36,003 bases of DNA from Sphingopyxis sp. GTDB taxonomy: Bacteria; Pseudomonadota; Alphaproteobacteria; Sphingomonadales; Sphingomonadaceae. How positions within the stretch are numbered: position 1 is the first letter of the stretch; every line of letters begins with the position of its first letter. The stretch is taken from contig NZ_JAOZVW010000105.1 of NCBI RefSeq assembly GCF_025869345.1, positions 1 to 36,003 of the forward strand, given 5' to 3'. Made by a program: the position numbers and the translations under genes. Shown piece after piece: positions 1 through 17,377 of the stretch. The notes under the pieces are model-generated. The model had not been told where the DNA came from. It made no database searches and worked only from the letters and a program-made list of their open reading frames with translations.

Positions 1-590
1 AGCTGACCGCGACGCCGGGGTCGGACGTGGCCGAAACGGCCTTGGTGCCGATGCCGCGGATAGAGATATTGTAGCTGGTGAAGTTCGACTTGCTGAACGT
101 CAGGTTCGGCACCGCCCGCATGATGTCGGAGCCGCTCTCGATCTTCTGCTCTTCGAGATTCCTCTGCGACAGCGCCGTCATCGCGATCGGCACGTCCTGA
201 ATGGACTCCACCCGCTTTTGCGCGGTGACGACGATTTCGTTGCCGGTGTAGGCGTTATCCGCGGCTGCCTGCGGTTCGGTTGCGGCAACGACGGACCAGG
301 TTTGCGGCCCGGTCTGCCGCGCAACGAGTCCGGTGCCCTTCAACAGCATTGCAACGGCTTGCTCGACCGTCATGTCGCCCTGAACGGCGTTGACCTGTTT
401 GCCTTCGGTATCTCTGCGGGCGGCGACGATCTGGATGTCAGCCTGGCGTCCGAGTTCGGCGATACCGGTGGTCGCAGACTGCGCCGGCACGTCGAACGAC
501 TTGGCCTGTGCGTAAGCCGGCGTCGCCGTCGCCACGCAAACGATCGCGGTCGTGGCCATGAATGCGCTGCGGCCGATTCCAATCCCCATG
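1..590 (-). CDS. TonB-dependent receptor with STN signalling domain, 5' part only
   Basis: Outer-membrane active-transport receptor of the FecA-like transducer class. Its 3' end lies outside the window, so only about 196 residues are visible. The ATG at 588-590 follows a strong GGGAGGG ribosome binding site. Residues 1-27 form a signal peptide ending in TPAYA. Residues about 30-102 form an STN (secretin/TonB short N-terminal) domain, which contacts a FecR partner. NEIVVTAQKR near residue 117 is a TonB-box-like segment. The start of the plug domain follows, with VPIAMTALS and a later SIRGIG motif. It lies directly downstream of fecR-like and fecI-like genes on the same strand, so it is the expected target and sensor of that sigma factor. 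An ECF-type promoter precedes it. The substrate (siderophore, carbohydrate or other) cannot be told from this part. Confidence 0.93.
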
Positions 591-628
591 TTTCCCTCCC
601 ATATCGGGCGCCCGATCTGGCGCCTCAG

Positions 629-661
629 ACCTACAAGAGTTCCGGGCCGCCATTTTCCTTC
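629..661 (-). promoter_or_regulatory. ECF sigma promoter of the TonB-dependent receptor
   Basis: On the minus strand GAAGGAAAAT (652-661) is followed after exactly 12 bases by CTCTTGTAGGT (629-639). The same two blocks with the same spacing occur upstream of the fecI-like gene (2253-2285). The site lies between the end of the fecR-like gene and the receptor start, about 40 bases before the start codon. A GGAAAA-type -35 is usual for iron-starvation-type ECF sigma factors. That the neighbouring sigma factor uses it is inferred. Confidence 0.7.
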
Positions 662-679
662 ACCCCGGCGGAAACTTTT

Positions 680-1636
680 TTACCGGCCGAGCGCGCCAAT
701 GCGAATATGAGCCGAATCCGACACGTCGATCGGCACGCCCAAGGTAATGTGAACCGCCTGTGCGAAGCCTTCGGGATCGTCGGTCCGAAACACGCCGTCG
801 AGCCGTTCGCCGGCGATGGCGGGATTGGCGACGACGAGCTTGCGTTCGTTATAGCGATTGAACTCGGCGACCGCGCTGTCGAGCCGGTCGCCGGAAAGAT
901 CGACCTTGCCGCTGCGCCAGGCGAGCGTGCGGTCGATCGCCGATGGTTCGGCCGATTCCTGTTTGATCGCCGCATTGTCGGCGATGAAGCCGCGCGATCC
1001 CGCGCTGATCCGAACACGATGCCCCTCGGCCCCGTCGGCCCACACCTCGACCGTGCCCTCGGTGACAAGCACTTCGGCGCCGCCCACGCGCCGCCGCACC
1101 GAAAAGGCCGTGCCGACCGCCCGGATGCGCGCGCGACCCGCCGCGACAACGAACGGGCGCTGCTTGTCCTTGGCGACCTGAAACCAGACTTCGCCTTCTT
1201 CGACACTCACGCGGCGCGCCGCATCCTCCAGCGTAACGCTGATTTCGCTGGCGGTGTTGATCGCGGCGATCGAGCCGTCCGCGAGCGGCACCCGGCGGAT
1301 TTCACCCACCGACGTCGCATAGCTGGTCCCGCCGCCCAGCATCAGCGCGCCCATGAACGACGCCGCCAGGACCGCGCCGCCACCGGCAAACACGCTCCGG
1401 CGGCTGAGCCATCCGGACCGCTTGGGCGCGTCGAGCGGAATGGATTCCGTCGGTCGCGGCGGATCGAGCGACATCCACGCTGCCTGCGCGCGCAGCAGGG
1501 CGCCGGGGTGGCGCGGATCGAGCGCGAGCCAGTCCTGCAAGCCCTCCTCCTGCTCGTCGGACCAGTCGTCGCGGTCCATCTGCGCGACATAGCGCGCGGC
1601 ATCGACATCGATGTCGGTGGCGGTCCGCTGTGTCAT
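680..1636 (-). CDS. FecR-family anti-sigma factor / sigma regulator
   Basis: Inner-membrane protein that carries the receptor signal to its ECF sigma factor. It has 318 residues. The N-terminal cytoplasmic DUF4880-type region (about 10-55, with DEQEEGLQDWLALDPRHPGA) binds sigma. A single membrane segment spans about 82-102. The periplasmic FecR domain (about 110-215) includes EGEVWFQVAKD and VGTAFSV. A C-terminal DUF4974/STN-like segment (about 250-315) would meet the receptor STN domain. Its start overlaps the sigma gene by four bases (ATGA), which suggests translational coupling. The family assignment is secure; the pairing with the adjacent receptor is inferred from gene order. Confidence 0.93.
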   Translation of the reverse strand: MTQRTATDIDVDAARYVAQMDRDDWSDEQEEGLQDWLALDPRHPGALLRAQAAWMSLDPPRPTESIPLDAPKRSGWLSRRSVFAGGGAVLAASFMGALMLGGGTSYATSVGEIRRVPLADGSIAAINTASEISVTLEDAARRVSVEEGEVWFQVAKDKQRPFVVAAGRARIRAVGTAFSVRRRVGGAEVLVTEGTVEVWADGAEGHRVRISAGSRGFIADNAAIKQESAEPSAIDRTLAWRSGKVDLSGDRLDSAVAEFNRYNERKLVVANPAIAGERLDGVFRTDDPEGFAQAVHITLGVPIDVSDSAHIRIGALGR

Positions 1637-2202
1637 GTCCGGTTCTCCCGGCTTTCCAGTTCGCTCAGGCGTGCTTCGGTTTGCGCCTCGCTGTCGCGCC
1701 AGGCGCGCTGGACGGCCTGCACGCCGCGGAAAATCTCGTTCTCGACGATGCTTTCGGTGACGCCGAGCATGTCGGCGATCTCGCGCTGCGAGTAGCCGTC
1801 GATCTTGCGCATCCGCACGATGCGGCGGCGGCGCTCGGGCAATCCGTCGATCAGCGCCAACATGCGGCGGTAATCGATCCGGTCGCCAGCTTCATGTTCC
1901 GGGGAGGGGCGCATTTCGTCCTGGAAGTTTTCGATCTCCGCAAAGGCTTCGATGGGCACAATTCTGGCCCGGCGCAGGCGGTGGACCAGCAGATTGCGCG
2001 CGATCGAGAAGAAATAGGCATCGGGGCGGTCGATATGATCGACGCTATCCAGCGCTGCGCACCGCGAATAGGTTTCCTGAATCAAATCGTCGACATCCTC
2101 CTGTGACGCATGGCGTGCGAGCCAGGCGCGCACCGACTTTTCGTGGGGAATGACATATTCCGTCACCCACGCAGCCATGCGGCGCCGCCGCTCGATAATC
2201 AC
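1633..2202 (-). CDS. FecI-type ECF RNA polymerase sigma factor
   Basis: Extracytoplasmic-function sigma-70 factor. Region 2 contains DVDDLIQETYSRCAAL and PDAYFFSIARNLLVHRLRR. Region 4 contains LPERRRRIVRMRKIDGYSQREIA and ends with an HTH of the form MLGVTESIVENEI. An open frame extends back to a TTG at 2259. However, the predicted ECF promoter has its -10 at 2259-2263, so that codon would fall at or before the transcript start. I therefore prefer the GTG at 2202 (189 residues); the ATG at 2178 is also possible. A purine-rich GGGGGAGGAG lies upstream of the GTG but at long spacing. The gene is first in the sigma/anti-sigma/receptor unit. Confidence 0.9.
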   Translation of the reverse strand: MIIERRRRMAAWVTEYVIPHEKSVRAWLARHASQEDVDDLIQETYSRCAALDSVDHIDRPDAYFFSIARNLLVHRLRRARIVPIEAFAEIENFQDEMRPSPEHEAGDRIDYRRMLALIDGLPERRRRIVRMRKIDGYSQREIADMLGVTESIVENEIFRGVQAVQRAWRDSEAQTEARLSELESRENRT

Positions 2203-2252
2203 GCCCTTCGCCGTGACCTTTCTCTCCTCCCCCTCGCGATTTTGTGTCTTGC

Positions 2253-2285
2253 ACCCCAAAGAGGCGCGGGAGCGGATTTTCCTTC
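2253..2285 (-). promoter_or_regulatory. ECF sigma promoter of the fecI-like gene (autoregulatory)
   Basis: Minus-strand GAAGGAAAAT (2276-2285), a 12-base spacer, then CTCTTTGGGGT (2253-2263). The -35 block is identical to that before the TonB receptor (652-661), the first five bases of the -10 block are identical, and the spacing is the same. This suggests that the sigma factor activates its own gene and the receptor gene. The rest of 2286-2351 is AT-rich non-coding sequence with no other clear signal. Confidence 0.68.
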
Positions 2286-2625: not shown

Positions 2626-3648
2626 CTATGCGTCCAGGCGTGCCGCAAGATCGGCCGCCTTTGGCTTGTAGTAAACCTGAAGCATCGAGAGCGATTTGTG
2701 CCCGGTGATCGCCGCCAGTTCGAGCACGTTCGAGAGCTTGGGCGCCATGGTCGTCGCGGCTTCCCTTCGACTGTCGTGGAAATGAATGTGCGACAGATCG
2801 GCGTCGCGCTTGGCTTCGCGGAACAGTTTGTCGAAATGACCTGTCTGCACCGGAACCACCGGCTCCGCCGGTCGGCGATCCTGCACTATCCTAAGCAGCG
2901 CCATCGCCGCCTTCGAAAGCGGCACGTCACGCTCATCGCCGTTCTTGGTCATGTCGAGGTGCGCCCGGCGCTCCTCAAAATCGACATCGGCCCAAGTTAG
3001 GGACAGGATTTCGCCTTTCCGCATGGCGGTTTCCAAGGCCAGGTAGAAGGCGAACGCCACCCATTGCGACTGTGTTTCCGGCTCGCTTTTTCCATCCCAC
3101 CCCAGTTGCTCGATAATCTTCTGTCGTTCGGCGACGGAGACGCGCTGCGTGCGCGGACGGGGCTTGCGAGGCTTCGTAACCTGCGAGCACGGGTTGGCCG
3201 TCAGGCCAAGTCGCCATTCCTTCATGGCTTGCGTGAACACGCTGGAGATAAGACAAAGCTCCCTGTTCACCGTGGATGGCGAAACCTGGACCAGACGAGT
3301 ATCGCGCCATTCGGCGATATCGGCGCCGGTGATCGAGGTGATTGAACGCTGGAATAGCGGATATCGACGGATCAGCATCCGGAGTCTGATCTGCTCCCAT
3401 CGACCGCCTCGCTTGTTTGGCGACACCTCGTCGGCATAACGTTTGATTATGTCGGCGGCCGACGGTGAGACGGCGACAATGTGTTCGCTAACGATCGCCT
3501 CGGCGGCAACTCCGCCTATGATTTTGCTCTCGGTCGTGATAGCCCACGCTTCCGCTTCCACCTTGGAGTCGAAGGTTGCGGAAATAGATTCGCCGTTGCG
3601 GCGGACCTGAGCCCGCCAAGCCTTTTTGCGCTTCTGAATGGTTGCCAT
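2626..3648 (-). CDS. Tyrosine recombinase / phage-type integrase
   Basis: Site-specific recombinase of 340 residues. The N-terminal arm-binding-like domain spans about 1-50, the SAM-like core-binding domain about 60-155, and the catalytic domain about 170-335. The complete catalytic set is visible: R210 (AMRKGEIL), K235 (MTKNGDERD), H291 and R294 (HDSRREA), H317 (TGHKS) and Y326 (LQVYYKP). It is probably active. The ATG has AAAGG about eight bases upstream. It is followed by a small HTH gene. No other mobile genes, tRNA or clear attachment duplication is visible nearby, so this looks like the edge or remnant of an integrated element. Confidence 0.95.
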   Translation of the reverse strand: MATIQKRKKAWRAQVRRNGESISATFDSKVEAEAWAITTESKIIGGVAAEAIVSEHIVAVSPSAADIIKRYADEVSPNKRGGRWEQIRLRMLIRRYPLFQRSITSITGADIAEWRDTRLVQVSPSTVNRELCLISSVFTQAMKEWRLGLTANPCSQVTKPRKPRPRTQRVSVAERQKIIEQLGWDGKSEPETQSQWVAFAFYLALETAMRKGEILSLTWADVDFEERRAHLDMTKNGDERDVPLSKAAMALLRIVQDRRPAEPVVPVQTGHFDKLFREAKRDADLSHIHFHDSRREAATTMAPKLSNVLELAAITGHKSLSMLQVYYKPKAADLAARLDA

Positions 3649-8274: not shown

Positions 8275-9684
8275 CTAGGACGGTTCGACCAGCCCCCCGC
8301 CCAACGCGACATAGAGCGTCACCAGATTGTCGACCTGCGCGCGGCGCAGTTCGATTAGCGCCTGCTCGGACGCGAAGAGGTTGCGTTCGGCGTCGAGCAC
8401 CTCGAGATAGGTCGACACCCCTTCGCGATAGCGCTTGCGCGCAAGGTCGGCGATGCGGCGCGTCGCCTCGGTCCCGCGCTCCTGCGCTTCGACCTGTTCG
8501 GCCAGATGCCGCCGCCCGGCGAGCGCGTCGGCGACCTCGCGGAACGCCGACTGCACGGTCTTCTCATAAGTCGCGACCGCGATATTCTCGCGCGCCTCGG
8601 CGACGGTCAGATTGCCCTTGTTGCGGCCAAAGTCGAAGATCGGCAGGCTGATCGTCGGGCCGAAGCTCCACGTCAGCCCATTGTTACCGAACAGGCTGTC
8701 GAGCGACGACGACGCAAAACCGACATTGCCCGTCAGCGAGATCGACGGGAAGAAGGCGGCACGCGCGGCGCCGACATTGGCACGCGCGGCGCGAAGCTGT
8801 TCCTCGGCCTGCAAGATGTCGGGCCGCGCCACCAGCAATTCGGACGGCAGCCCCGCGGTCAGCGCGGGCGGACGCGACTGGTCGACGAGCGGCAGCGGCG
8901 CGGGCAGGTCGGCCGGAAGCGGTCCGCCGACGAGCACGGCGAGGAAATTATCCGCCTGCGCCTTGGCGAGCTTGAGGCTGGCAAGCTGCGTTTCGGCCTG
9001 CGTCAGCAGCGTCTCGGACTGGCGATAGTCGAGCGCCGAGGTCACCCCGGCGTCGAGCCGCAGCTTGGCGATGCGTAGCCCCTCGCGGCGGCTGGTCACC
9101 GTCGCTTCGGCCAGGACGATCTGCTCCTCCGCCCCGCGCGCGGCGAAATAGGTCGAGGCGGTGTCGCGGATCAGCGATAGGCGAAAGGCCCGCTCGGCCT
9201 GCTGGGTCGCGAAATACTGGCTGCGCGCGGCTTCGGACAGATTCTTCACCCGCCCCCAGAAATCGAGCTCGAAGCCGGTGACTCCGACCCCCACCGAATA
9301 GCGGTTCGAGGTGTCGGGCCCCGGCGGCGTGGTAAAGGCCGAAAAGGCCCGGCTGCGCGTCGCGTCGGCGCTCGCCCCGACGGTCGGCAGGCGGTCGGCG
9401 TCCTGGATGCGATATTGCCCCTTCGCTTCCTCGATCCGCGCGACGGCGATCGCGAGGTCGCGGTTGCGTTCGAGCGCGCGCGACACCAGCGCCGCGAGCT
9501 GCGGGTCGGCGAAGAAATCGCGCCACGATATCTCGGTCGCGCGCTGGCCGAGCGTGACGTCGTTCGCAAAGCCTTCGGGATAGTCGGGCGCGGTCGGCAG
9601 CGCCGGGCGCTCGTGCGGCGGCGCAAGGTTGACGCACCCCGACAGCATCGTCGCCGCGGCGAGGAGCAGGATCGGCTTACGCAT
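8275..9684 (-). CDS. Outer-membrane factor lipoprotein of the RND efflux system (NodT/OprM family)
   Basis: TolC-like outer-membrane channel, 469 residues. I chose the ATG at 9684: AGGAGG lies upstream, and it gives a clean lipoprotein signal with LSGC (lipid Cys17). An ATG at 9702 would add six residues but precedes the ribosome binding site. Two outer-membrane efflux repeats are visible. The first contains WRDFFADPQLAALVSRALERN; the second contains LVARPDILQAEEQLRAARANVGAARAAFFPSI, ending near GRVKNLS-like and DFGRNKGNL segments. It overlaps the end of the RND pump gene by eight bases (ATGCGTAA), so the two are co-translated. It is the last gene of the adaptor-pump-channel operon. Confidence 0.93.
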   Translation of the reverse strand: MRKPILLLAAATMLSGCVNLAPPHERPALPTAPDYPEGFANDVTLGQRATEISWRDFFADPQLAALVSRALERNRDLAIAVARIEEAKGQYRIQDADRLPTVGASADATRSRAFSAFTTPPGPDTSNRYSVGVGVTGFELDFWGRVKNLSEAARSQYFATQQAERAFRLSLIRDTASTYFAARGAEEQIVLAEATVTSRREGLRIAKLRLDAGVTSALDYRQSETLLTQAETQLASLKLAKAQADNFLAVLVGGPLPADLPAPLPLVDQSRPPALTAGLPSELLVARPDILQAEEQLRAARANVGAARAAFFPSISLTGNVGFASSSLDSLFGNNGLTWSFGPTISLPIFDFGRNKGNLTVAEARENIAVATYEKTVQSAFREVADALAGRRHLAEQVEAQERGTEATRRIADLARKRYREGVSTYLEVLDAERNLFASEQALIELRRAQVDNLVTLYVALGGGLVEPS

Positions 9685-12600
9685 GGGTCGGCCCCTCCTC
9701 ATGATGGCTTTTCTCGGACGGCGCCGGGGGCCGCTTGCGGCTGAGCCACTTGCGCACCGACAGGTAGAAGAGCGGGATGAAGAAGATGCCGAGCAGCGTC
9801 GCGGCGATCATGCCGCCCATCACCCCGGTGCCGACCGCGCGGCGGCTCGCCGCCCCCGCCCCGCTCGCGATCACCAGCGGCACCATGCCGAGGATGAAGG
9901 CCATGCTGGTCATGATGATCGGGCGGAGGCGCAGCTTCACCGCCTCCATCACCGCGTCGAGCGTTCCCTTGCCTTCGGCCTCCTGCTCGATCGCGAATTC
10001 GACGATCAGGATCGCATTCTTCGCGGCGAGCCCGATGATCGTGATCAGCCCGACGTTGAAATAAATGTCGGCGGAGAGCCCGCGCAGCATCGAGAAGAGC
10101 ACCGCGCCGAGCACGCCCAATGGCACGACGAGCAGCACCGACACCGGCACCGACCAGCTCTCGTAGAGCGCCGCGAGCAGCAGGAAGACGACGACGAGCG
10201 ACAGGCCCAGCAACATGCCGATTTGCCCCGCCGACTGCTTCTCCTCATAGGAGATGCCCGTCCATTCATAGGCGAAGCCCGCGGGCAGCGCCTGCGCCAG
10301 CCTCTCCATCTCGGCCATCGCCTCGCCGGTCGACTGGCCGGGCGCGGGCTCGCCCGAGATCGTCATCGCGGGATAGCCGTTGTAGCGCTGAAGCTGCGGC
10401 GCCTGCGCCGACCATTCGGCGGTGCTGAACGATCCGAAAGGCACCATCTCGCCCGCCGCGCTGCGCACCTTGAGGTCGAGCACGTCCTGCGGCGTCATCC
10501 GGCTCGCGGCGTCGGCCTGGAGCAGCACGCGCAGCACGCGGCCCTCGCGGGTGAAGTCGTTGGCATAGGCGCTGCCGAAGCTGATCGCGAGCGTCGCATT
10601 GACGTCGCCGATCGACAGGCCGAGCGCGCGCGCCTTGATGCGGTCGATGTCGACCTTCAGCACCGGTGCATCCTCCTGCCCCTCGGGCCGGACGTTGGCG
10701 AGCGTCTTGCTCTGCATCGCGCCGCCGAGCATCTGGTTGCGCGCGGCGAGCAGCGCATCGCGCCCGGCGCCGCCGCGGTCCTGCAGCTTGAAGGTGAAGC
10801 CGCTCGACGTGCCGAGTTCGGGGATCGACGGCGGGCTCAGCGAAAAGACGAACGCCTCCTTGATGCCCATGAAGGCGCCCATCGCCTTGCCCGCGATCGC
10901 CTCGGCGCTGTTCTCCTTGCCGTGGCGTTCCTTCCACGGCTTGAGCGGGGTGAACATGATCGCGTTCGCCTGCCCCTGGCCGAAGAAGCTGAACCCGCGC
11001 ACGAAGACGGTGTCCGCGACCTGCGGCTGCTCCGCGAAGAATTTCTTGACCTGGTTCGCGGCGATGTCGGTGCGCTGCGTCGTCGCGCCCGGCGGCGCCT
11101 GGACGACGGTGATCAGAAAGCCCTGATCCTCCTGCGGCAGGAACGAACCCGGCAGGCGGAAGAAGAGCAAGGCGGTGATCGCGACGAGCGCGAGGAAAAT
11201 GCCGAGCCAGCGCAGCGGAGCCGACAGCACGTGGCCGACCTGTCCCTGATAGCGGTCGGTCGTGCGCCCGAACCAGCTATTGAAGCCATCGAAGAAGCGG
11301 TCGACGCGCGCGCCGATCGGCCCGCTGCGCTTTGCCGCGTCGTGCGGCTTCAGCAGCGTCGCGCACAGCGCCGGGGTCAGCGTCAGAGCGAGCAGCGCCG
11401 AAAAGCCGATAGAGATCGCCAGCGTCAGCGAGAATTGGCGATAGATGCCGCCCGTCGATCCGGGGAAGAAGGCCATCGGGATGAACACCGCGATCAGCAC
11501 CAGCGTGATGCCGATGATCGCCGAGGTGATCTGGCTCATCGCCTTCACCGTCGCCTCATAGGGCGACAGATGCTCCTCGCTCATGATGCGCTCGACATTC
11601 TCGATCACGACGATCGCATCGTCGACGAGGATGCCGATCGCGAGCACCATGCCGAACAGGGTCAGCACGTTGATCGAAAAGCCCGCCATCCACAGGCCAA
11701 GGCACGCACCGGCGAGCGCGATCGGGACGACGACGGTGGGGATCACCGTCGCGCGCCAGTTCTGGAGGAAGAGGAACATCACGAGGAAGACGAGCGCCAT
11801 CGCCTCGGCGAGCGTCTTCACCACTTCCTCGATCGACAGGCTGATGAAGGGGGTCGTGTCATAGGGGATCGACCAGGTGACGTCGGGCGGGAAACCCTTC
11901 GCCAGCTCGTCCATCCGTTCGCGGATGCCCGCCGCGGTCGAGAGCGCGTTGGCGCCGGGGGTGAGCTGGACCGCGAGCCCCGCCATCGGCTTGCCGTTGA
12001 GTTCGGACGAGAAGAGATAGCTCGCAGCGCCGAGTTCGACGCGGCCGACGTCGCCCAATGTCACCGCCGACCCATCGGGGTTGGCGCGCAGGATGATGCT
12101 TGCGAACTGTTCGGGCTTGGTGAAGCGGCCCTGCGTCGTGATGACGGCGTTAAGTTGCGCGCCCTTGGCGAGCGGCTGATCGCCGAGCTGGCCGCCGGGC
12201 GTCTGGCTGTTCTGTTCCTGCACCGCGCCGAGCGCTTCGGCGGGCGAGAGATTGTAGGAGGCGAGCTTCTGCGGATCGAGCCAGATGCGCATCGCATATT
12301 CGGGCGCAAAGGCCTGAACGTTGCCGACGCCGTTGACGCGGCGCAGCTCGTCGAGCACGCGCGTGTTGGCGAAATTGTTGATCTCCATCGGGTCGGTCTT
12401 GCCGCTCTTCGACGTGATCGCGACGATCAGCAGAAAGCCCGAATTGGCCTCCGTCACCGAAATGCCCTGCCGCCGCACATCCTCGGGCAGGCGTTGCTCG
12501 ACGCGGCGCAGGCGGTTCTGGACCTCCATCTGCGCATTGTCGATGTCGGTCCCCGCTTCGAAGGTCAGGGTGATCGACGCGGTGCCGTTCGATTCGCTGG

Positions 12601-12844
12601 TCGAGGCCATGTAGAGGAAGCCCTCGACCCCGTTCAGCTCCTGCTCGATCACCTGCGTGACATTCTGCTCGAGCGTCCCGGCATCGGCGCCGGGATAGGT
12701 GACGCTGATCGTCAGCGACGGCGGCGCGACCGATGGATATTGCTCGACCGGCAGCCCGCGCAGCGCGATGATCCCGGCGAGCAGGATGCCGATGGCGATG
12801 ACCCACGAGAAGATGGGCCGGTCGATGAAGAAGCGGGGAGTCAT
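9677..12844 (-). CDS. RND efflux pump, HAE1 family (AcrB/MexB-like)
   Basis: Inner-membrane proton-driven multidrug transporter, 1055 residues, the normal length of the family. The start is the ATG at 12844 (MTPRFFIDRPIFSWVIA is the conserved N-terminus); the open frame further upstream overlaps the adaptor gene and is not used. The proton relay is intact: D408-D409 in GILVDDAIVVIENVER (TM4), the lysine of AAKNAILIVEFA (TM10), and a conserved TM11 segment TSMAFILGMVPL. The family motif GSTGGIYRQFSLTLAISIGF is present. Two large periplasmic loops separate the 12 membrane helices. It sits 10 bases after the adaptor gene stop and overlaps the channel gene, so all three form one operon under the divergent TetR gene. 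The drug range cannot be read from the sequence. Confidence 0.96.
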   Translation of the reverse strand: MTPRFFIDRPIFSWVIAIGILLAGIIALRGLPVEQYPSVAPPSLTISVTYPGADAGTLEQNVTQVIEQELNGVEGFLYMASTSESNGTASITLTFEAGTDIDNAQMEVQNRLRRVEQRLPEDVRRQGISVTEANSGFLLIVAITSKSGKTDPMEINNFANTRVLDELRRVNGVGNVQAFAPEYAMRIWLDPQKLASYNLSPAEALGAVQEQNSQTPGGQLGDQPLAKGAQLNAVITTQGRFTKPEQFASIILRANPDGSAVTLGDVGRVELGAASYLFSSELNGKPMAGLAVQLTPGANALSTAAGIRERMDELAKGFPPDVTWSIPYDTTPFISLSIEEVVKTLAEAMALVFLVMFLFLQNWRATVIPTVVVPIALAGACLGLWMAGFSINVLTLFGMVLAIGILVDDAIVVIENVERIMSEEHLSPYEATVKAMSQITSAIIGITLVLIAVFIPMAFFPGSTGGIYRQFSLTLAISIGFSALLALTLTPALCATLLKPHDAAKRSGPIGARVDRFFDGFNSWFGRTTDRYQGQVGHVLSAPLRWLGIFLALVAITALLFFRLPGSFLPQEDQGFLITVVQAPPGATTQRTDIAANQVKKFFAEQPQVADTVFVRGFSFFGQGQANAIMFTPLKPWKERHGKENSAEAIAGKAMGAFMGIKEAFVFSLSPPSIPELGTSSGFTFKLQDRGGAGRDALLAARNQMLGGAMQSKTLANVRPEGQEDAPVLKVDIDRIKARALGLSIGDVNATLAISFGSAYANDFTREGRVLRVLLQADAASRMTPQDVLDLKVRSAAGEMVPFGSFSTAEWSAQAPQLQRYNGYPAMTISGEPAPGQSTGEAMAEMERLAQALPAGFAYEWTGISYEEKQSAGQIGMLLGLSLVVVFLLLAALYESWSVPVSVLLVVPLGVLGAVLFSMLRGLSADIYFNVGLITIIGLAAKNAILIVEFAIEQEAEGKGTLDAVMEAVKLRLRPIIMTSMAFILGMVPLVIASGAGAASRRAVGTGVMGGMIAATLLGIFFIPLFYLSVRKWLSRKRPPAPSEKSHHEEGPTHA

Positions 12845-12854
12845 GCAGTCGGCC

Positions 12855-14051
12855 TCAGCGCTTGGTGGCCGCGGTCTTGGCCGGGGCGGTCTTGGACGGC
12901 GCGGTCCGGGCGGGCTGGGGCCGGGTCGCTGCGGTTCCCGCAACCTTCACCGGCTGTCCCGGCTGGACCTTTTGCAGGCCGTCGACGATCACGCGGTCGC
13001 CGGGCCGCAACCCGTCGAGGATCGCCCATTGCCCGCCCTGCATCTCGCCCAGCTTCACCGGACGCAGCGTCGCGGCATTCTTGGCATCGACGATCATCAC
13101 CGTCGCGGCGTCGGCGGACAGCTTGACCGCGCGCTGCGGGATCAGGATGCCGTTGGGCCGCACCCCCGCCTTGATCCGCGCGCGCACGAACTGCCCCGGC
13201 AGCAAGGCATTGCCGGCGTTCGGAAACTCCGCGCGCAGCGCCGCGGTGCCGGTCGCCTCATCGATCGAAAGGTCGAAGAAATCGAGGTGACCGATCACCG
13301 GATAGGGCGTGCCGTCCTCGAGGATCAGCTGCACCTCGACGCGGCCCACCGGCGGGAATTGCAGCCGCCCCGATTCCATGTCGCGGCGGATCGCCATCAG
13401 GTCGGAGCTCGACTGGCCGAAATTGACGTAGACGCGGTCGATCTGCTCGATCGTCGTCAGCAGCGTGCCCTGCGCGGCGCTGACCAGCGCGCCCTCGGTC
13501 ACCTCGGCGCGCCGCGCGCGGCCGCCGATCGGCGCGGTGACGGTCGCATAGCCGAGGCTGAGCCGCGCCGAATCGAGATTGGCCTGCGCCGACTGGACGT
13601 CGGCCTCGGCGGTGCGCTGCGCCGCGACGGCGGCGTCATATTCCTGCTTGCCGATTGCCTGTTCCGACAAGAGCGGTTGATAGCGGTTCACGACCTGCCG
13701 CGCGTTCGCCGCGGTTGCCTGCGCGCGGGCGAGCTGCGCGCGCGCGGCGTTGACGTTGGCGGTGAGCTGCCGCGGATCGATGCGAAACAGCGCCTTGCCC
13801 GCGGCGACATAGCTGCCCTCCTCGAACAATCGCCGCTCGACGATGCCGTCGACGCGCGCGCGCACCTCGGCGGTGCGATAGGCCTGGACGCGGCCGGGCA
13901 GTTCGATGACGTTCGGCACCGCCTGGGTGCCGACGGTCACGATATTGACCTCGGGCGGCGGCGGCGCGGGCGGCGCCTCGGACGAGCAGGAAGCCAGCAC
14001 GAGGGCCAGCGCAGCGCAGGCGGCGCTTGCCACGGGACGAAGGCGAATCAT
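12855..14051 (-). CDS. RND periplasmic adaptor subunit (AcrA/MexA-like lipoprotein)
   Basis: Membrane-fusion protein of 398 residues linking the RND pump to the outer-membrane channel. The lipobox LASC puts the lipid cysteine at residue 22. It is followed by a Pro-rich linker, a first lipoyl half (VEVRARVDGIVERRLFEEGS), an alpha-hairpin (about 95-165, rich in Ala and Gln), the second lipoyl half (LGYATVTAPIGGRARRAEVT), a beta-barrel domain and a membrane-proximal domain. The C-terminus is an Ala/Pro/Lys/Thr-rich tail, longer than usual. It is the first gene of the operon. Its promoter must lie in the 109-base region shared with the TetR gene, which contains a palindromic operator candidate. 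Confidence 0.95.
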   Translation of the reverse strand: MIRLRPVASAACAALALVLASCSSEAPPAPPPPEVNIVTVGTQAVPNVIELPGRVQAYRTAEVRARVDGIVERRLFEEGSYVAAGKALFRIDPRQLTANVNAARAQLARAQATAANARQVVNRYQPLLSEQAIGKQEYDAAVAAQRTAEADVQSAQANLDSARLSLGYATVTAPIGGRARRAEVTEGALVSAAQGTLLTTIEQIDRVYVNFGQSSSDLMAIRRDMESGRLQFPPVGRVEVQLILEDGTPYPVIGHLDFFDLSIDEATGTAALRAEFPNAGNALLPGQFVRARIKAGVRPNGILIPQRAVKLSADAATVMIVDAKNAATLRPVKLGEMQGGQWAILDGLRPGDRVIVDGLQKVQPGQPVKVAGTAATRPQPARTAPSKTAPAKTAATKR

Positions 14052-14118
14052 AAGGACCCCTGGAAAATCGATGTTTGCTGAACGTAAAACGGGCCGGAAC
14101 CGTTGCGTTGAATCGCCG

Positions 14119-14134
14119 TGTAATATAAATTACA
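14119..14134. promoter_or_regulatory. Candidate TetR operator
   Basis: TGTAAT-ATAA-ATTACA is a perfect 6-bp inverted repeat with a 4-base spacer, in the 109-base region between the divergent adaptor (minus) and TetR (plus) genes. It lies 26 bases before the TetR start codon and is the only clear palindrome there. Its AT-rich make-up contrasts with the surroundings. Binding here could repress both directions, as for other TetR-controlled RND operons. Confidence 0.6.
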
Positions 14135-14160
14135 GTCAAGAGCAAGGGAGAGAATAGGCG

Positions 14161-14796
14161 TTGGAAAAGTGCGAATCGACGATATGTCAGGCGGATAGGC
14201 CGACCCCGCGCGAACGGCGGCACGGGGCGATTCTCGATGCGGCCGAAACTTTGTTCATCGAACAGGGCTATGACCGCACCAGTCTTGCCGAAATCGTCCG
14301 CCGCTCGGGCGGGTCGCTCGCGACGCTCTACGAGCTTTTCGGCAACAAGCAGGGGCTGCTCCACGCGATCGCGACGCGCTGGCGCGACCAGACGGTGCTG
14401 AGCCGCATGGAACGCGGCGACATCGCGGCGCAATCGAATGTCGAAACGCTGATGAACTATGTCGAGAGCGAGCGCGAATTCCGCCGCTCGCCGCGCGCGA
14501 TCGCGCTGATGAAGATGCTGGTTTCCGAATGTCTGCGCGACCGGGACTTCGCGCTGCAAATCTATCGCGACCTGCATATGCCTGCGGTCCACGAGCTTTC
14601 GGAGCTGTTCGCCGACTGGGCGGCGGCAGGCGAAGCCGAGATCGACGATCCGGAAGCCGCCGCCCAACTGTTCGTCTCGACCGTCTCGGGCGATTCGATG
14701 CTCAGCACCCTGGCGGGGGTCGAGGACGGGATGCTCGACGAGGATCAGGTCCGCTGGCGGCTCCGCCCCTTCCTCTCGCATTTCCGGATCGTTTAA
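14161..14796 (+). CDS. TetR/AcrR-family repressor of the RND efflux operon
   Basis: 211 residues. The N-terminal TetR HTH spans about 18-65, with ILDAAETLFIEQGYDRTSLAE and a recognition segment GGSLATLYELFGNKQGLL. The C-terminal ligand-binding domain resembles the AefR-like group (EFRRSPRAIALMKMLVSE). The start is TTG at 14161 with GGGAGAG upstream. It is divergent from the adaptor-pump-channel operon, the usual place for its local repressor. Its stop codon overlaps that of the convergent second outer-membrane factor gene: the four bases TTAA serve both. Confidence 0.92.
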   Translation: MEKCESTICQADRPTPRERRHGAILDAAETLFIEQGYDRTSLAEIVRRSGGSLATLYELFGNKQGLLHAIATRWRDQTVLSRMERGDIAAQSNVETLMNYVESEREFRRSPRAIALMKMLVSECLRDRDFALQIYRDLHMPAVHELSELFADWAAAGEAEIDDPEAAAQLFVSTVSGDSMLSTLAGVEDGMLDEDQVRWRLRPFLSHFRIV

Positions 14797-16148
14797 TCCG
14801 CCCCTCCCCCAAGCGCCTGATAAAGCGCGACATAGGCGCTGAGCCGGTCGGCGCGAAGCTGGATCAGCGCCTGATCGACCGCGAGCAGCGCGCGCTGCGC
14901 GTCGATCTGCTCGAGATAGGGCGAATAGCCCGCGCGATAGCGGTTCGTCGCGTGGCGCAGCACTTCGGCGACGGCATTGTGCTGCGCAAGCAGCGCCTGT
15001 TCCTGCGCGCCGAGCCGGTCGATCAGCGCAAGCTGATCCTCGACCTCGCGGAAGGCGGTGAGCACCGACTTGCGATAGGCGAAGGCGGCCTGGTCGCGCT
15101 GCGCGGTCGCGGCGTCATATTGCCCCTGCAACCGCCCGCCCTGAAAGATCGGCGCCAATATGCTGCCGCCGATCGACCAGATGCTGATCGGGTCGCCGAG
15201 CAGGTTCGACGCCGCCGCCCCGGCCGAGGCCGAAAGCCGGATCTGCGGCAGGAACTGCGCGCGCGCGGCGCGCAGATTGGCGTCGGTCGCGGCGAGCGCA
15301 TATTCGGCCTGCGCGATGTCGGGCCGGCGGCGGACGAGATCTGACGGCAGGACGGCGGGCACCACCGGCGTCGCGAGCGCATCGAAACGCGCCCCGCGCG
15401 CGATCGCATGCGGCGTGTCGCCGACGAGCAAGGACAGCCCATTTTCCTGCCGCGCGATCGCCGCCTCGATCGCCGGAATCTGCTGCTCGGCGGCGCGATA
15501 TTCGGCCTCCGACTGCCGCAGTTCAAGCTGGGAGGTATAGCCCGCCTCGGCGCGGTCGCGCGCGATGCGCAGCGCTTCGCCGCGCGAAACCAGCGTCTGC
15601 TTCAGAAGATCGCGCCGCGCGTCGAGCGCAAGCAGCGTGATATAGCCGCTCGCCGCCGCCGCGCTGACCGACAGCATCGCCGCCTCACGCGCCGCCGCGA
15701 CCGCCGCGGCATTGGCGCGCGCCGCATCGCGCCGCGCCGCATTGCCGCCGAACAGGTCGACCTCATAGGCCGCCTGGAAGGTCGGCTGCGCCGAAACGCT
15801 CTCGCTCGGCTGGCCGAAGGCATTGACCGTCCGCGCTTCCGATCCCGGCAGGCTAGCCGACAGCGTGGGCAGCAGCAGCGATCGCGCGACGCGCTCCTGC
15901 GCGCGCGCTTCGGCGACGCGGGCGGCGGCGATGGCGAGGTCGCTGTTGTTCGCGCGCGCCTGTTCGACCAGCGCGGTGAGCTGCGGATCGCCGAAGCGTC
16001 CCCACCAGGCGGCGTCGATCGGTCCGTCGGCGGGCAATGCCGTGCGCCAGTCGGCGGGCGGCGCGACGGTGCTGCCCTCGGGGCGCGGCGTCAGTGCCGG
16101 CACGCAGGCGCCGAGCAGCAGCGGCAGAAGCAGCGCGGCGCGTCTCAC
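14793..16148 (-). CDS. Outer-membrane factor lipoprotein of the EmrAB-type system (NodT family)
   Basis: 451-residue TolC-like channel. Lipobox LGAC, lipid Cys15. The first outer-membrane efflux repeat begins around AWWGRFGDPQLTALVEQAR. The second follows at LVRRRPDIAQAEYALAATDANLRAARAQFLPQI, with GRLQGQYDAATAQRDQAAF. Its start overlaps the adaptor gene stop by four bases (16145-16148), so translation is probably coupled. It is the third gene of the pump-adaptor-channel operon that runs from 19056. It is clearly a different protein from the channel at 8275-9684. Confidence 0.93.
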   Translation of the reverse strand: MRRAALLLPLLLGACVPALTPRPEGSTVAPPADWRTALPADGPIDAAWWGRFGDPQLTALVEQARANNSDLAIAAARVAEARAQERVARSLLLPTLSASLPGSEARTVNAFGQPSESVSAQPTFQAAYEVDLFGGNAARRDAARANAAAVAAAREAAMLSVSAAAASGYITLLALDARRDLLKQTLVSRGEALRIARDRAEAGYTSQLELRQSEAEYRAAEQQIPAIEAAIARQENGLSLLVGDTPHAIARGARFDALATPVVPAVLPSDLVRRRPDIAQAEYALAATDANLRAARAQFLPQIRLSASAGAAASNLLGDPISIWSIGGSILAPIFQGGRLQGQYDAATAQRDQAAFAYRKSVLTAFREVEDQLALIDRLGAQEQALLAQHNAVAEVLRHATNRYRAGYSPYLEQIDAQRALLAVDQALIQLRADRLSAYVALYQALGGGAD

Positions 16149-17377
16149 CGCCCGCCATCCCTATCGGCGCTGCCCGTATAGACGGTGGCGACGACCGACA
16201 TGCCCGGCCCCAGCCGCGCCGCCAGCTTCTGGCCCGGATCGATGCGGATGCGCACCGCGATGCGCTGCGGCACCTTCACGAAATTGCCCGATCCGGTGTC
16301 GGGCTTGATGACGCTGAACTCGCTTCCCGCCGCGGGCGCGATGCTTTCGACCGTGCCCTTGAGCGCCTCCCCGCCGAGCGCGTCGATGCGCATCCGCGCC
16401 TTTTGCCCGACGCGGATGTTCGCGGTCTGCGATTCCTTGAAATTGGCGACCACCCAATGCGTCTGCGGCACCAGATACATGAGCTGGGTGCCCGGATTGA
16501 CGAGTTGGCCGACGCGCACCGACACCTCGCTGAGACTGCCCGAGCGCGGCGCACGGATCACCGTGCGGCCAAGATCGATGGCGGCAAGCCCGCTCGCCGC
16601 CTTGGCATTCTCCACCCCGGCTTCCAGCCCGCTGCGTCCGACCGTGACCGACCGCACCTGCTCGACCGCGATCTGGTGCTGCGCCTGCGCCTGGCGCACC
16701 GCCGCCTCGGCCTGGCGGAGCGCCGCGAGCGTCTGGTCGCGCTCGCGCAGCGACACCGATCCTGCGTCGACGAGCTCATTGACGCGCCGCATGTCGGCCT
16801 GTGCGCGCTGAAGCTGCGCCTGCGCGTTGGCGACGGCGGCGTCCTGCAACCGCACCTGCGCCTCGGCCGAGCGCTGGCTCTGCTCGCTGTTGCTGAGGCT
16901 CGCGCTCTGCGCCGCGATATTCGCCGTCCCCTGCGCGGCGCGCTGGCGATAGATGCTGTCGTCGATCCGCACGAGCACCTGTCCCGCCGCGACACGCTCG
17001 AAATCCTGCACCAGCACTTCGGTCACATAGCCGCCGACCTGCGGCGCAATGATCGTCGTCTGGCCGCGGATATAGGCGTTGTCGGTGGTCTGGCTGTCGG
17101 GCCGGAACGGCGGCAGGCCCCAGGCATAAAGGATGGCGAGCGCGCCGGCGAGGATGATCGCGCCGAACAATATGATCCGGCCGCGCGACTGCGGCGGCCG
17201 CCAGCCCGCGGGCGGCGGGCCGATCTGGTCGTCGGGCGATCCCTTATGCGCTTCGGGCGCAGGCTCCGCTGCCGGGGGCGGCGCGGAAGCCTTCGGTGCG
17301 GGCGCCTTCGGTGCGGGAGCCTTCGGCGCAGGCTCGGGCGTTTCCGGCTGCGGCGTGTCGGACCTGTCGTCGCTCAT
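16145..17377 (-). CDS. HlyD/EmrA-family membrane-fusion adaptor
   Basis: 410 residues. The cytoplasmic N-terminus is rich in Pro, Ala and Lys, with near-perfect tandem APKAP units (about residues 17-32, DNA 17281-17330). One membrane anchor spans about 69-88. The first lipoyl half follows (TTDNAYIRGQTTIIAPQVGG, then VLVQDFERVAAGQVLVRID), with a long coiled-coil hairpin (about 130-230), the second lipoyl half (TVIRAPRSGSLSEVSVRVGQ) and a beta-barrel. TDNAY is the EmrA-type signature. It connects the MFS pump to the outer-membrane channel. Both ends overlap neighbouring genes by four bases. Confidence 0.93.
   Translation of the reverse strand: MSDDRSDTPQPETPEPAPKAPAPKAPAPKASAPPPAAEPAPEAHKGSPDDQIGPPPAGWRPPQSRGRIILFGAIILAGALAILYAWGLPPFRPDSQTTDNAYIRGQTTIIAPQVGGYVTEVLVQDFERVAAGQVLVRIDDSIYRQRAAQGTANIAAQSASLSNSEQSQRSAEAQVRLQDAAVANAQAQLQRAQADMRRVNELVDAGSVSLRERDQTLAALRQAEAAVRQAQAQHQIAVEQVRSVTVGRSGLEAGVENAKAASGLAAIDLGRTVIRAPRSGSLSEVSVRVGQLVNPGTQLMYLVPQTHWVVANFKESQTANIRVGQKARMRIDALGGEALKGTVESIAPAAGSEFSVIKPDTGSGNFVKVPQRIAVRIRIDPGQKLAARLGPGMSVVATVYTGSADRDGGR

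Follow-up and report, generated by a model that had tools for sequence, protein, structure and literature searches.

A FecIRA-type gene cluster of Sphingopyxis with paired promoter-like boxes and a probable ACG start codon in its sigma factor gene

The window (the whole stretch of DNA analyzed here, contig C105, 36,003 nucleotides) belongs to a 4.0 Mb Sphingopyxis draft genome (3,996,317 bases, 167 contigs), and every result and conclusion reported here is computational. Read on the minus strand from position 2285 to 1, the window carries a promoter-like box, an ECF sigma factor gene, a FecR gene, the box once more, and the start of a TonB receptor gene (Table 1). The sigma protein contains PF04542 and PF08281, both above the Pfam cut-off, and the adjoining FecR-like protein matches PF04773 (71.8 bits; cut-off 24). 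The receptor fragment comprises the first 196 codons; its STN (PF07660) and plug (PF07715) domains score above cut-off at residues 53-188, and the barrel lies beyond the contig end. By these domains (sigma factor, adjacent FecR, TonB receptor with STN), the cluster is a FecIRA-type cell-surface signaling module, in agreement with an earlier note that had placed one copy of the box before a fecI-like gene and the other before a TonB-receptor gene. The sigma and FecR proteins are not E. coli FecI or FecR equivalogs; they score 50.2 and 95.9 against the respective NCBIfam equivalog models, below the cut-offs of 260 and 385. The closest named orthologs of the cluster are from Sphingopyxis (Sphingopyxis sp. 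GW247-27LB, 82%; S. granuli, 78%), and the genome has seven FecR genes in all.

A tyrosine-type phage integrase gene (2626-3648, minus strand) lies directly upstream of the putative sigma promoter, with a small open reading frame (2352-2648) between them, and the cluster may adjoin an integrated element. Elsewhere in the window, positions 8275-17377 (minus strand) hold two neighboring efflux gene sets, one with an OEP, an AcrB-type pump and an HlyD-type protein, followed by one with an OEP and an HlyD-type protein.

Table 1. Features of the signaling cluster in the window (promoter, start codon and leader assignments are predictions).
Feature	Position	Strand	Description
Putative promoter copy before sigma gene	2259..2285	-	-35 block GAAGGAAAAT 2285-2276, -10 block CTCTT 2263-2259; exact repeat; GGAA-N16-TC conserved in relatives
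Shine-Dalgarno site of sigma gene, GGAGGAGAG	2222..2230	-	Basis: sequence; duplex energy
FecI-like ECF sigma gene	1633..2214	-	Proposed start ACG 2214-2212, 193 aa, stop 1635-1633; Pfam sigma regions 2 and 4
FecR-like regulator gene	680..1636	-	Pfam FecR; ATG 1636-1634 overlaps sigma stop as ATGA; possible ribosome site GGGAG 1649-1645
Putative promoter copy before receptor gene	635..661	-	GAAGGAAAAT 661-652, CTCTT 639-635; exact repeat; conserved before relatives' receptor genes
Hairpin in predicted receptor leader	603..630	-	Fold -14.3 kcal/mol; just past predicted start site
TonB receptor gene	1..589	-	ATG 589-587, ribosome site GGGAGGG 600-594; truncated by contig end

The repeat has the form GAAGGAAAAT-N12-CTCTT. 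The copy before the sigma gene reads GAAGGAAAATCCGCTCCCGCGCCTCTT and the copy before the receptor gene reads GAAGGAAAATGGCGGCCCGGAACTCTT; both blocks and the spacing are identical, and the spacers are different. The exact motif occurs twice in the whole genome, both times in the window. One further match has one mismatch and lies inside open reading frames, seven have two mismatches, and the reversed control pattern has no match. The earlier note had reported the repeat at these two places and nowhere else, and both statements hold for the 4.0 Mb genome. Within the window, five matches were found at up to three mismatches (0.33 expected; five were reached in 0 of 100 shuffles). The expectation that a genome scan with the motif would mark other FecI, FecR or receptor genes was not borne out; there is no exact match elsewhere in the genome, so none lies before such genes. 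Two paralogous clusters (L052 and L053) each have a variant pair of their own by eye, of the CATCCTAC and CATCGT type respectively, and the L053 pair fails the strict GGAA-N16-TC pattern. The other four of the seven FecR clusters (L048-L051) were outside promoter scoring. A looser pattern, AAGGAA-N15-CTCTT, has four matches in the genome: the two in the window, L204, and L205, the last of which is inside open reading frames. Matches L204 and L205 were taken as chance. L204 (C117:92964-92989) sits in the gap separating two open reading frames that resemble tolB and pal by eye, and it may be chance or a third target. No sigma70-like site was found in positions 550-2450, where the chance expectation is only 0.2.

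Conservation of the paired boxes was evaluated in sigma relatives drawn from 60 genomes of the genus, 397 genomes of the family, 50 named loci, and 8 of 14 plasmid records. After 16 of 135 hit places without a usable anchor were dropped, 96 distinct genes were left, of which 93 had an accompanying FecR gene and sufficient flanking sequence; with eight plasmid genes, the resulting 104 genes were reduced to 77 non-redundant ones at 90% protein identity. When GGAA-Nd-TC was counted in the 93 clusters, a spacing of d = 16 gave 59 matches before sigma genes and 64 before receptor genes. Apart from d = 9 before sigma genes, every other spacing between 8 and 29 gave 1-15 matches; GGAA-N9-TC stands out with 35 matches before sigma genes versus 4 before receptor genes. 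In the 77 non-redundant clusters, the N16 element precedes both genes in 36, the sigma gene only in 8, the receptor gene only in 10, and neither in 23. Identical blocks and spacing with different spacers had been interpreted in the earlier note as a shared ECF promoter, and the recurrence of the paired layout in 36 of 77 relatives supports that interpretation. In a control table, which excludes plasmid loci without a mapped FecR end, N16 occurs in both regions of 33 clusters, and none of the eleven other spacings does so in more than one. Absence of the element from one or both genes in many relatives is partly due to the strictness of the pattern; some of the misses carry GGAT for GGAA by eye (L149, L151, and L152). 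An unrestricted search for two-block matches between the regions upstream of sigma and receptor genes gave 11.60 (of 13) within clusters and 11.04 between clusters, a weak excess because good matches are found between any two regions of this kind. The spacing counts are more informative.

Agreement between the two boxes of a cluster can indicate whether one sigma factor reads both. Among 35 clusters with one unambiguous site per side, the two bases before GGAA are equal on both sides in all 35 (permutation mean 12.6; 35 reached in 0 of 10,000), and the base before TC is equal in 32 (permutation mean 13.9). Spacers are barely more alike within clusters (4.5 of 12) than between them (4.0 of 12). 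The boxes also vary with the sigma protein: factors with an RPD-like loop have AAGGAA or TAGGAA and mostly CTC (mostly CTCTT), and those with SGR or SPR loops have ACGGAA and mostly CATC. Phylogenetically independent pairs number 1-3 for both promoter agreement and loop-to-promoter covariation because the tree has few independent switches. At the sequence level, the interpretation of the boxes as paired promoters used by the neighboring sigma factor is well supported. A shared ECF-type promoter before the sigma and receptor genes is likewise supported, which makes autoregulation probable; autoregulation, probably insulated, is the best reading. The earlier note had proposed autoregulation plus separate control of the receptor. 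Its first part is probable, and the second is better described as the same control present twice.

The start of the sigma gene is the second feature of interest. The first T of an upstream TTG (2259-2257) is also the final T of CTCTT; the codon overlaps the -10 box and is therefore upstream of any start site given by that box. As the earlier note argued, a transcript from that promoter would not offer it as a start. Three in-frame candidates lie in the window after the box and ahead of the conserved region, ACG 2214, GTG 2202, and ATG 2178, with ribosome-site duplex energies of -10.5, -3.7, and -5.0 kcal/mol; only the ACG has a good site. From sequence comparison, the gene most likely starts at this ACG. 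Sphingomonas relatives (L070-L075) have the same ACG after GGGAG or AGGAG, and none of ATG, GTG or TTG occurs from there to an invariant Trp. Plasmid-borne Novosphingobium relatives (L147-L152) also have the ACG; for the L152 protein, WP_230487916.1, the deposited start is a TTG that lies 30 codons into the homologous region. The plasmid records carry one annotated feature each for L147-L150 and none for L151. Two further loci (L153 and L154) have canonical starts in the deposited annotation, and many family relatives use ATG, GTG or TTG.

Two observations concern neighboring codons at sigma starts. ACG and GTG are adjacent in two relatives (ACG GTG in L121, GTG ACG in L149), possibly lineages shifting between ACG and GTG starts. 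In the CATCGT clade (L053, L066, L087, L089, and L090), a minimal ATG-ACG-TGA frame overlaps the sigma GTG start; the corresponding frame in L065 is ATG-TCG-TGA.

Recurrence of the ACG was quantified across the relatives. In eight of 77 genes, the 22 codons ahead of the Trp include no canonical start codon, and seven of these genes have ACG (L147, L148, L151, L030, L115, L074, and L077); the eighth, L038, is probably mis-anchored, and L147 has an in-frame ATG farther upstream, adjoining the -10 box. In 57 genes without a canonical start 4-10 nt past the Shine-Dalgarno core, ACG stands at that distance more often than any other codon (18 of 57 versus 1.7 expected; 18 reached in 0 of 100,000 simulations), with relatives counted as independent and kinship ignored in this and the following enrichment test. 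The 18 include L080 and L153, where other candidates are present, and leave out the window, whose ACG follows AGGAG by 9 nt and the core used by the parser by 11 nt. As a frame control in 76 genes, ACG occurs at Shine-Dalgarno distance 18 times in frame and 4 and 3 times in the other frames; ATG occurs there in frame 13 times. At least nine changes between ACG and canonical starts are required on a quick tree of 76 rows, from which 4 ambiguous rows were omitted. Two further searches of 396 genomes each served as a fresh test and gave 18 loci, 12 of them new, with possible redundancy among the 12. ACG has the best site in eight of the new loci (L207, L208, L214, L217, L218, L219, L220, and L223), of which L217 and L219 are close calls and L220 is weak; four have canonical starts (L206, L210, L211, and L216).

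A second initiator tRNA reading ACG was sought in the draft genome with ARAGORN; no initiator-like tRNA with anticodon CGT is among the 41 tRNA matches, and the normal initiator was not recognized there either, probably because of an assembly gap. Three ordinary Thr tRNAs are among the 41. A separate tRNA pattern search had six matches, none with anticodon CAT or CGT, which were read as chance or tRNA-Ile.

Downstream signals were compared between the genes of each cluster. In 19 ACG-candidate clusters, surveyed for canonical FecR starts only, the FecR ATG overlaps the sigma stop in 12, and 10 of these 12 have a ribosome site of -6.5 kcal/mol or better. Predicted folding of the window leaders gave z -1.88 for the receptor and z -0.89 for the sigma gene (dinucleotide shuffles). 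With mononucleotide shuffles, 41 receptor leaders have a mean z of -2.02, about 23 (56%) of them below -1.5, versus a mean of +0.21 and 7% below -1.5 for 40 sigma leaders, which are shorter. Receptor leaders thus tend to have a 5' hairpin of varying sequence, located after the predicted transcript start and ahead of the ribosome site, and sigma leaders are without one. The hairpin may protect or tune receptor mRNA. Overall, the reading given in the earlier note is partly supported; it missed the hairpin and the probable ACG start.

Other explanations of the boxes would detach them from the neighboring sigma gene. GGAA-type -35 elements are also read by other ECF factors, and the genome has 12 matches to the window sigma protein, so a general-stress ECF factor or a paralogue could be imagined as the reader of both boxes. 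Yet the elements differ between sigma clades while agreeing within clusters (35/35 and 32/35), and they follow the sigma loop (A-GGAA and mostly CTCTT with RPD-like loops, C-GGAA and mostly CATC with SGR or SPR loops), which makes this improbable. It is still harder to credit that the boxes are chance matches, or a repeated operator of another regulator. Their promoter role is deduced from sequence and the independent phylogenetic pairs are few (1-3), but a fixed N16 with an unconserved spacer stands before both genes in several genera, and the receptor-leader hairpins sit just past the predicted start site.

The more serious alternative accepts the paired autoregulatory promoters and takes the ACG as a plain Thr codon, with translation starting at GTG 2202, at ATG 2178, or at a codon near a leaderless 5' end. 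GTG and ATG are both in frame downstream of the ACG in the window, and an in-frame ATG or TTG is close to the predicted transcript start in the window and in L057, L058, L063, L147, and L152, where initiation may be leaderless. In E. coli, ACG is a poor initiator. Among the five genus orthologs (the window and L055-L058), however, two have lost the GTG and one the ATG, and the ACG is kept in all. In six relatives an in-frame stop lies shortly before the ACG (L070, L071, L075, L115, L207, and L223), and the first five of them have no canonical codon from the ACG to the invariant Trp. The upstream codon that a leaderless start would use does not occur in L055, L056, L062, L074, L077, L030, L148, or L151. 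Against a plain Thr codon, the other Thr codons are nearly missing at the same distance in the 76 genes (ACC 0, ACA 1, and ACT 1, versus 18 for ACG). We therefore regard a start other than the ACG as unlikely, and prefer initiation at the ACG.

Taken together, the sigma factor, a switch for a nutrient-uptake receptor, very likely also activates its own gene from a matching promoter. In the proposed circuit, it would read two copies of its own promoter, one driving sigma-fecR (positive autoregulation) and the other driving the receptor gene. The loaded receptor would signal through FecR, and active sigma factor would then raise its own operon and the receptor together. Output would be set after transcription. 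With ACG as its start, even behind a strong Shine-Dalgarno site, the sigma frame would be expected to be translated weakly. The FecR ATG overlaps the sigma stop, and the receptor transcript would combine a 5' hairpin with a strong ATG site. Low sigma factor relative to FecR would prevent spontaneous firing of the loop, and one promoter type could give two outputs, low sigma factor and high receptor, through the leaders. We consider this whole explanation, an autoregulated FecIRA-type module with paired promoters, a weak ACG sigma start and leader-set outputs, to be likely. A broader proposal is tentative, with the odds slightly against it: that in an autoregulated FecI-like clade of Sphingopyxis, Sphingomonas, and Novosphingobium, a natural ACG start is a conserved, IF3-sensitive brake that sets the threshold of positive feedback, and the same promoter yields high receptor via hairpin and ATG.

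TonB receptors are particularly abundant in sphingomonads, according to excerpts of PMC9249621, and a cluster-specific paired promoter code would predict which sigma factor controls which receptor. The recurring ACG start is more surprising than the paired promoters. If true, it extends the short list of characterized non-canonical bacterial starts by one conserved across at least three genera, and it links nutrient sensing with the fidelity of translation initiation. It would also explain why WP_230487916.1 is annotated without the conserved N-terminus; annotation limited to ATG, GTG, and TTG would misplace such starts. ACG seems hardly ever to be reported as a bacterial start, and here it would keep a sigma switch weak until needed. 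In literature titles and abstract openings, a coverage that left most subscription papers outside, no natural ACG start was found described for bacteria or for sigma genes, the nearest case being the GTC of sigR; the word ACG is absent from the accessible part of PMC13245402.

Several known systems resemble the window cluster (statements on them reflect the accessible portions of the sources). In the FecI-FecR-FecA system of E. coli, sigma factor, FecR and a TonB receptor with a signaling domain are likewise clustered, and an ECF-type promoter precedes the receptor gene (PMC9249621). E. coli fecIR, however, is described as transcribed by sigma70 under Fur and not autoregulated (PMC9249621), whereas the window sigma gene carries the box of the receptor; in line with the earlier note, the circuit would differ from that of FecI. 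HasI (PMC9249621) and HemI of Stenotrophomonas maltophilia (PMC12772443) are similar in having a FecI-like factor, a FecR-like partner and a TonB receptor, and differ in that hasI and hemI are described as not autoregulated. Many ECF factors do autoregulate (PMC12772443).

For the start codon, bacterial infC offers a regulatory start outside ATG, GTG, and TTG, but it is ATT or ATC and lies in the IF3 gene itself rather than in a sigma gene (PMC5472188). The closest parallel is sigR-rsrA. Streptomyces sigR has a proven, IF3-repressed GTC start (GTT in two species), and when a canonical codon takes the place of GTC, sigma factor is in excess and its regulon becomes constitutive (PMC5472188). The window ACG is predicted only, and the anti-sigma class and signal differ from those of sigR-rsrA (PMC5472188). 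Window-type sigma genes have the conserved in-frame non-canonical codon at Shine-Dalgarno distance by which starts of the sigR kind are recognized. Both systems combine an ECF sigma factor, a non-canonical start (predicted in the window) behind an extended ribosome site, an adjoining anti-sigma gene and an autoregulatory promoter, which is probable here (PMC5472188). As proposed for the window, sigR-rsrA pairs a weak start of the sigma gene with a normal one of the anti-sigma gene (PMC5472188).
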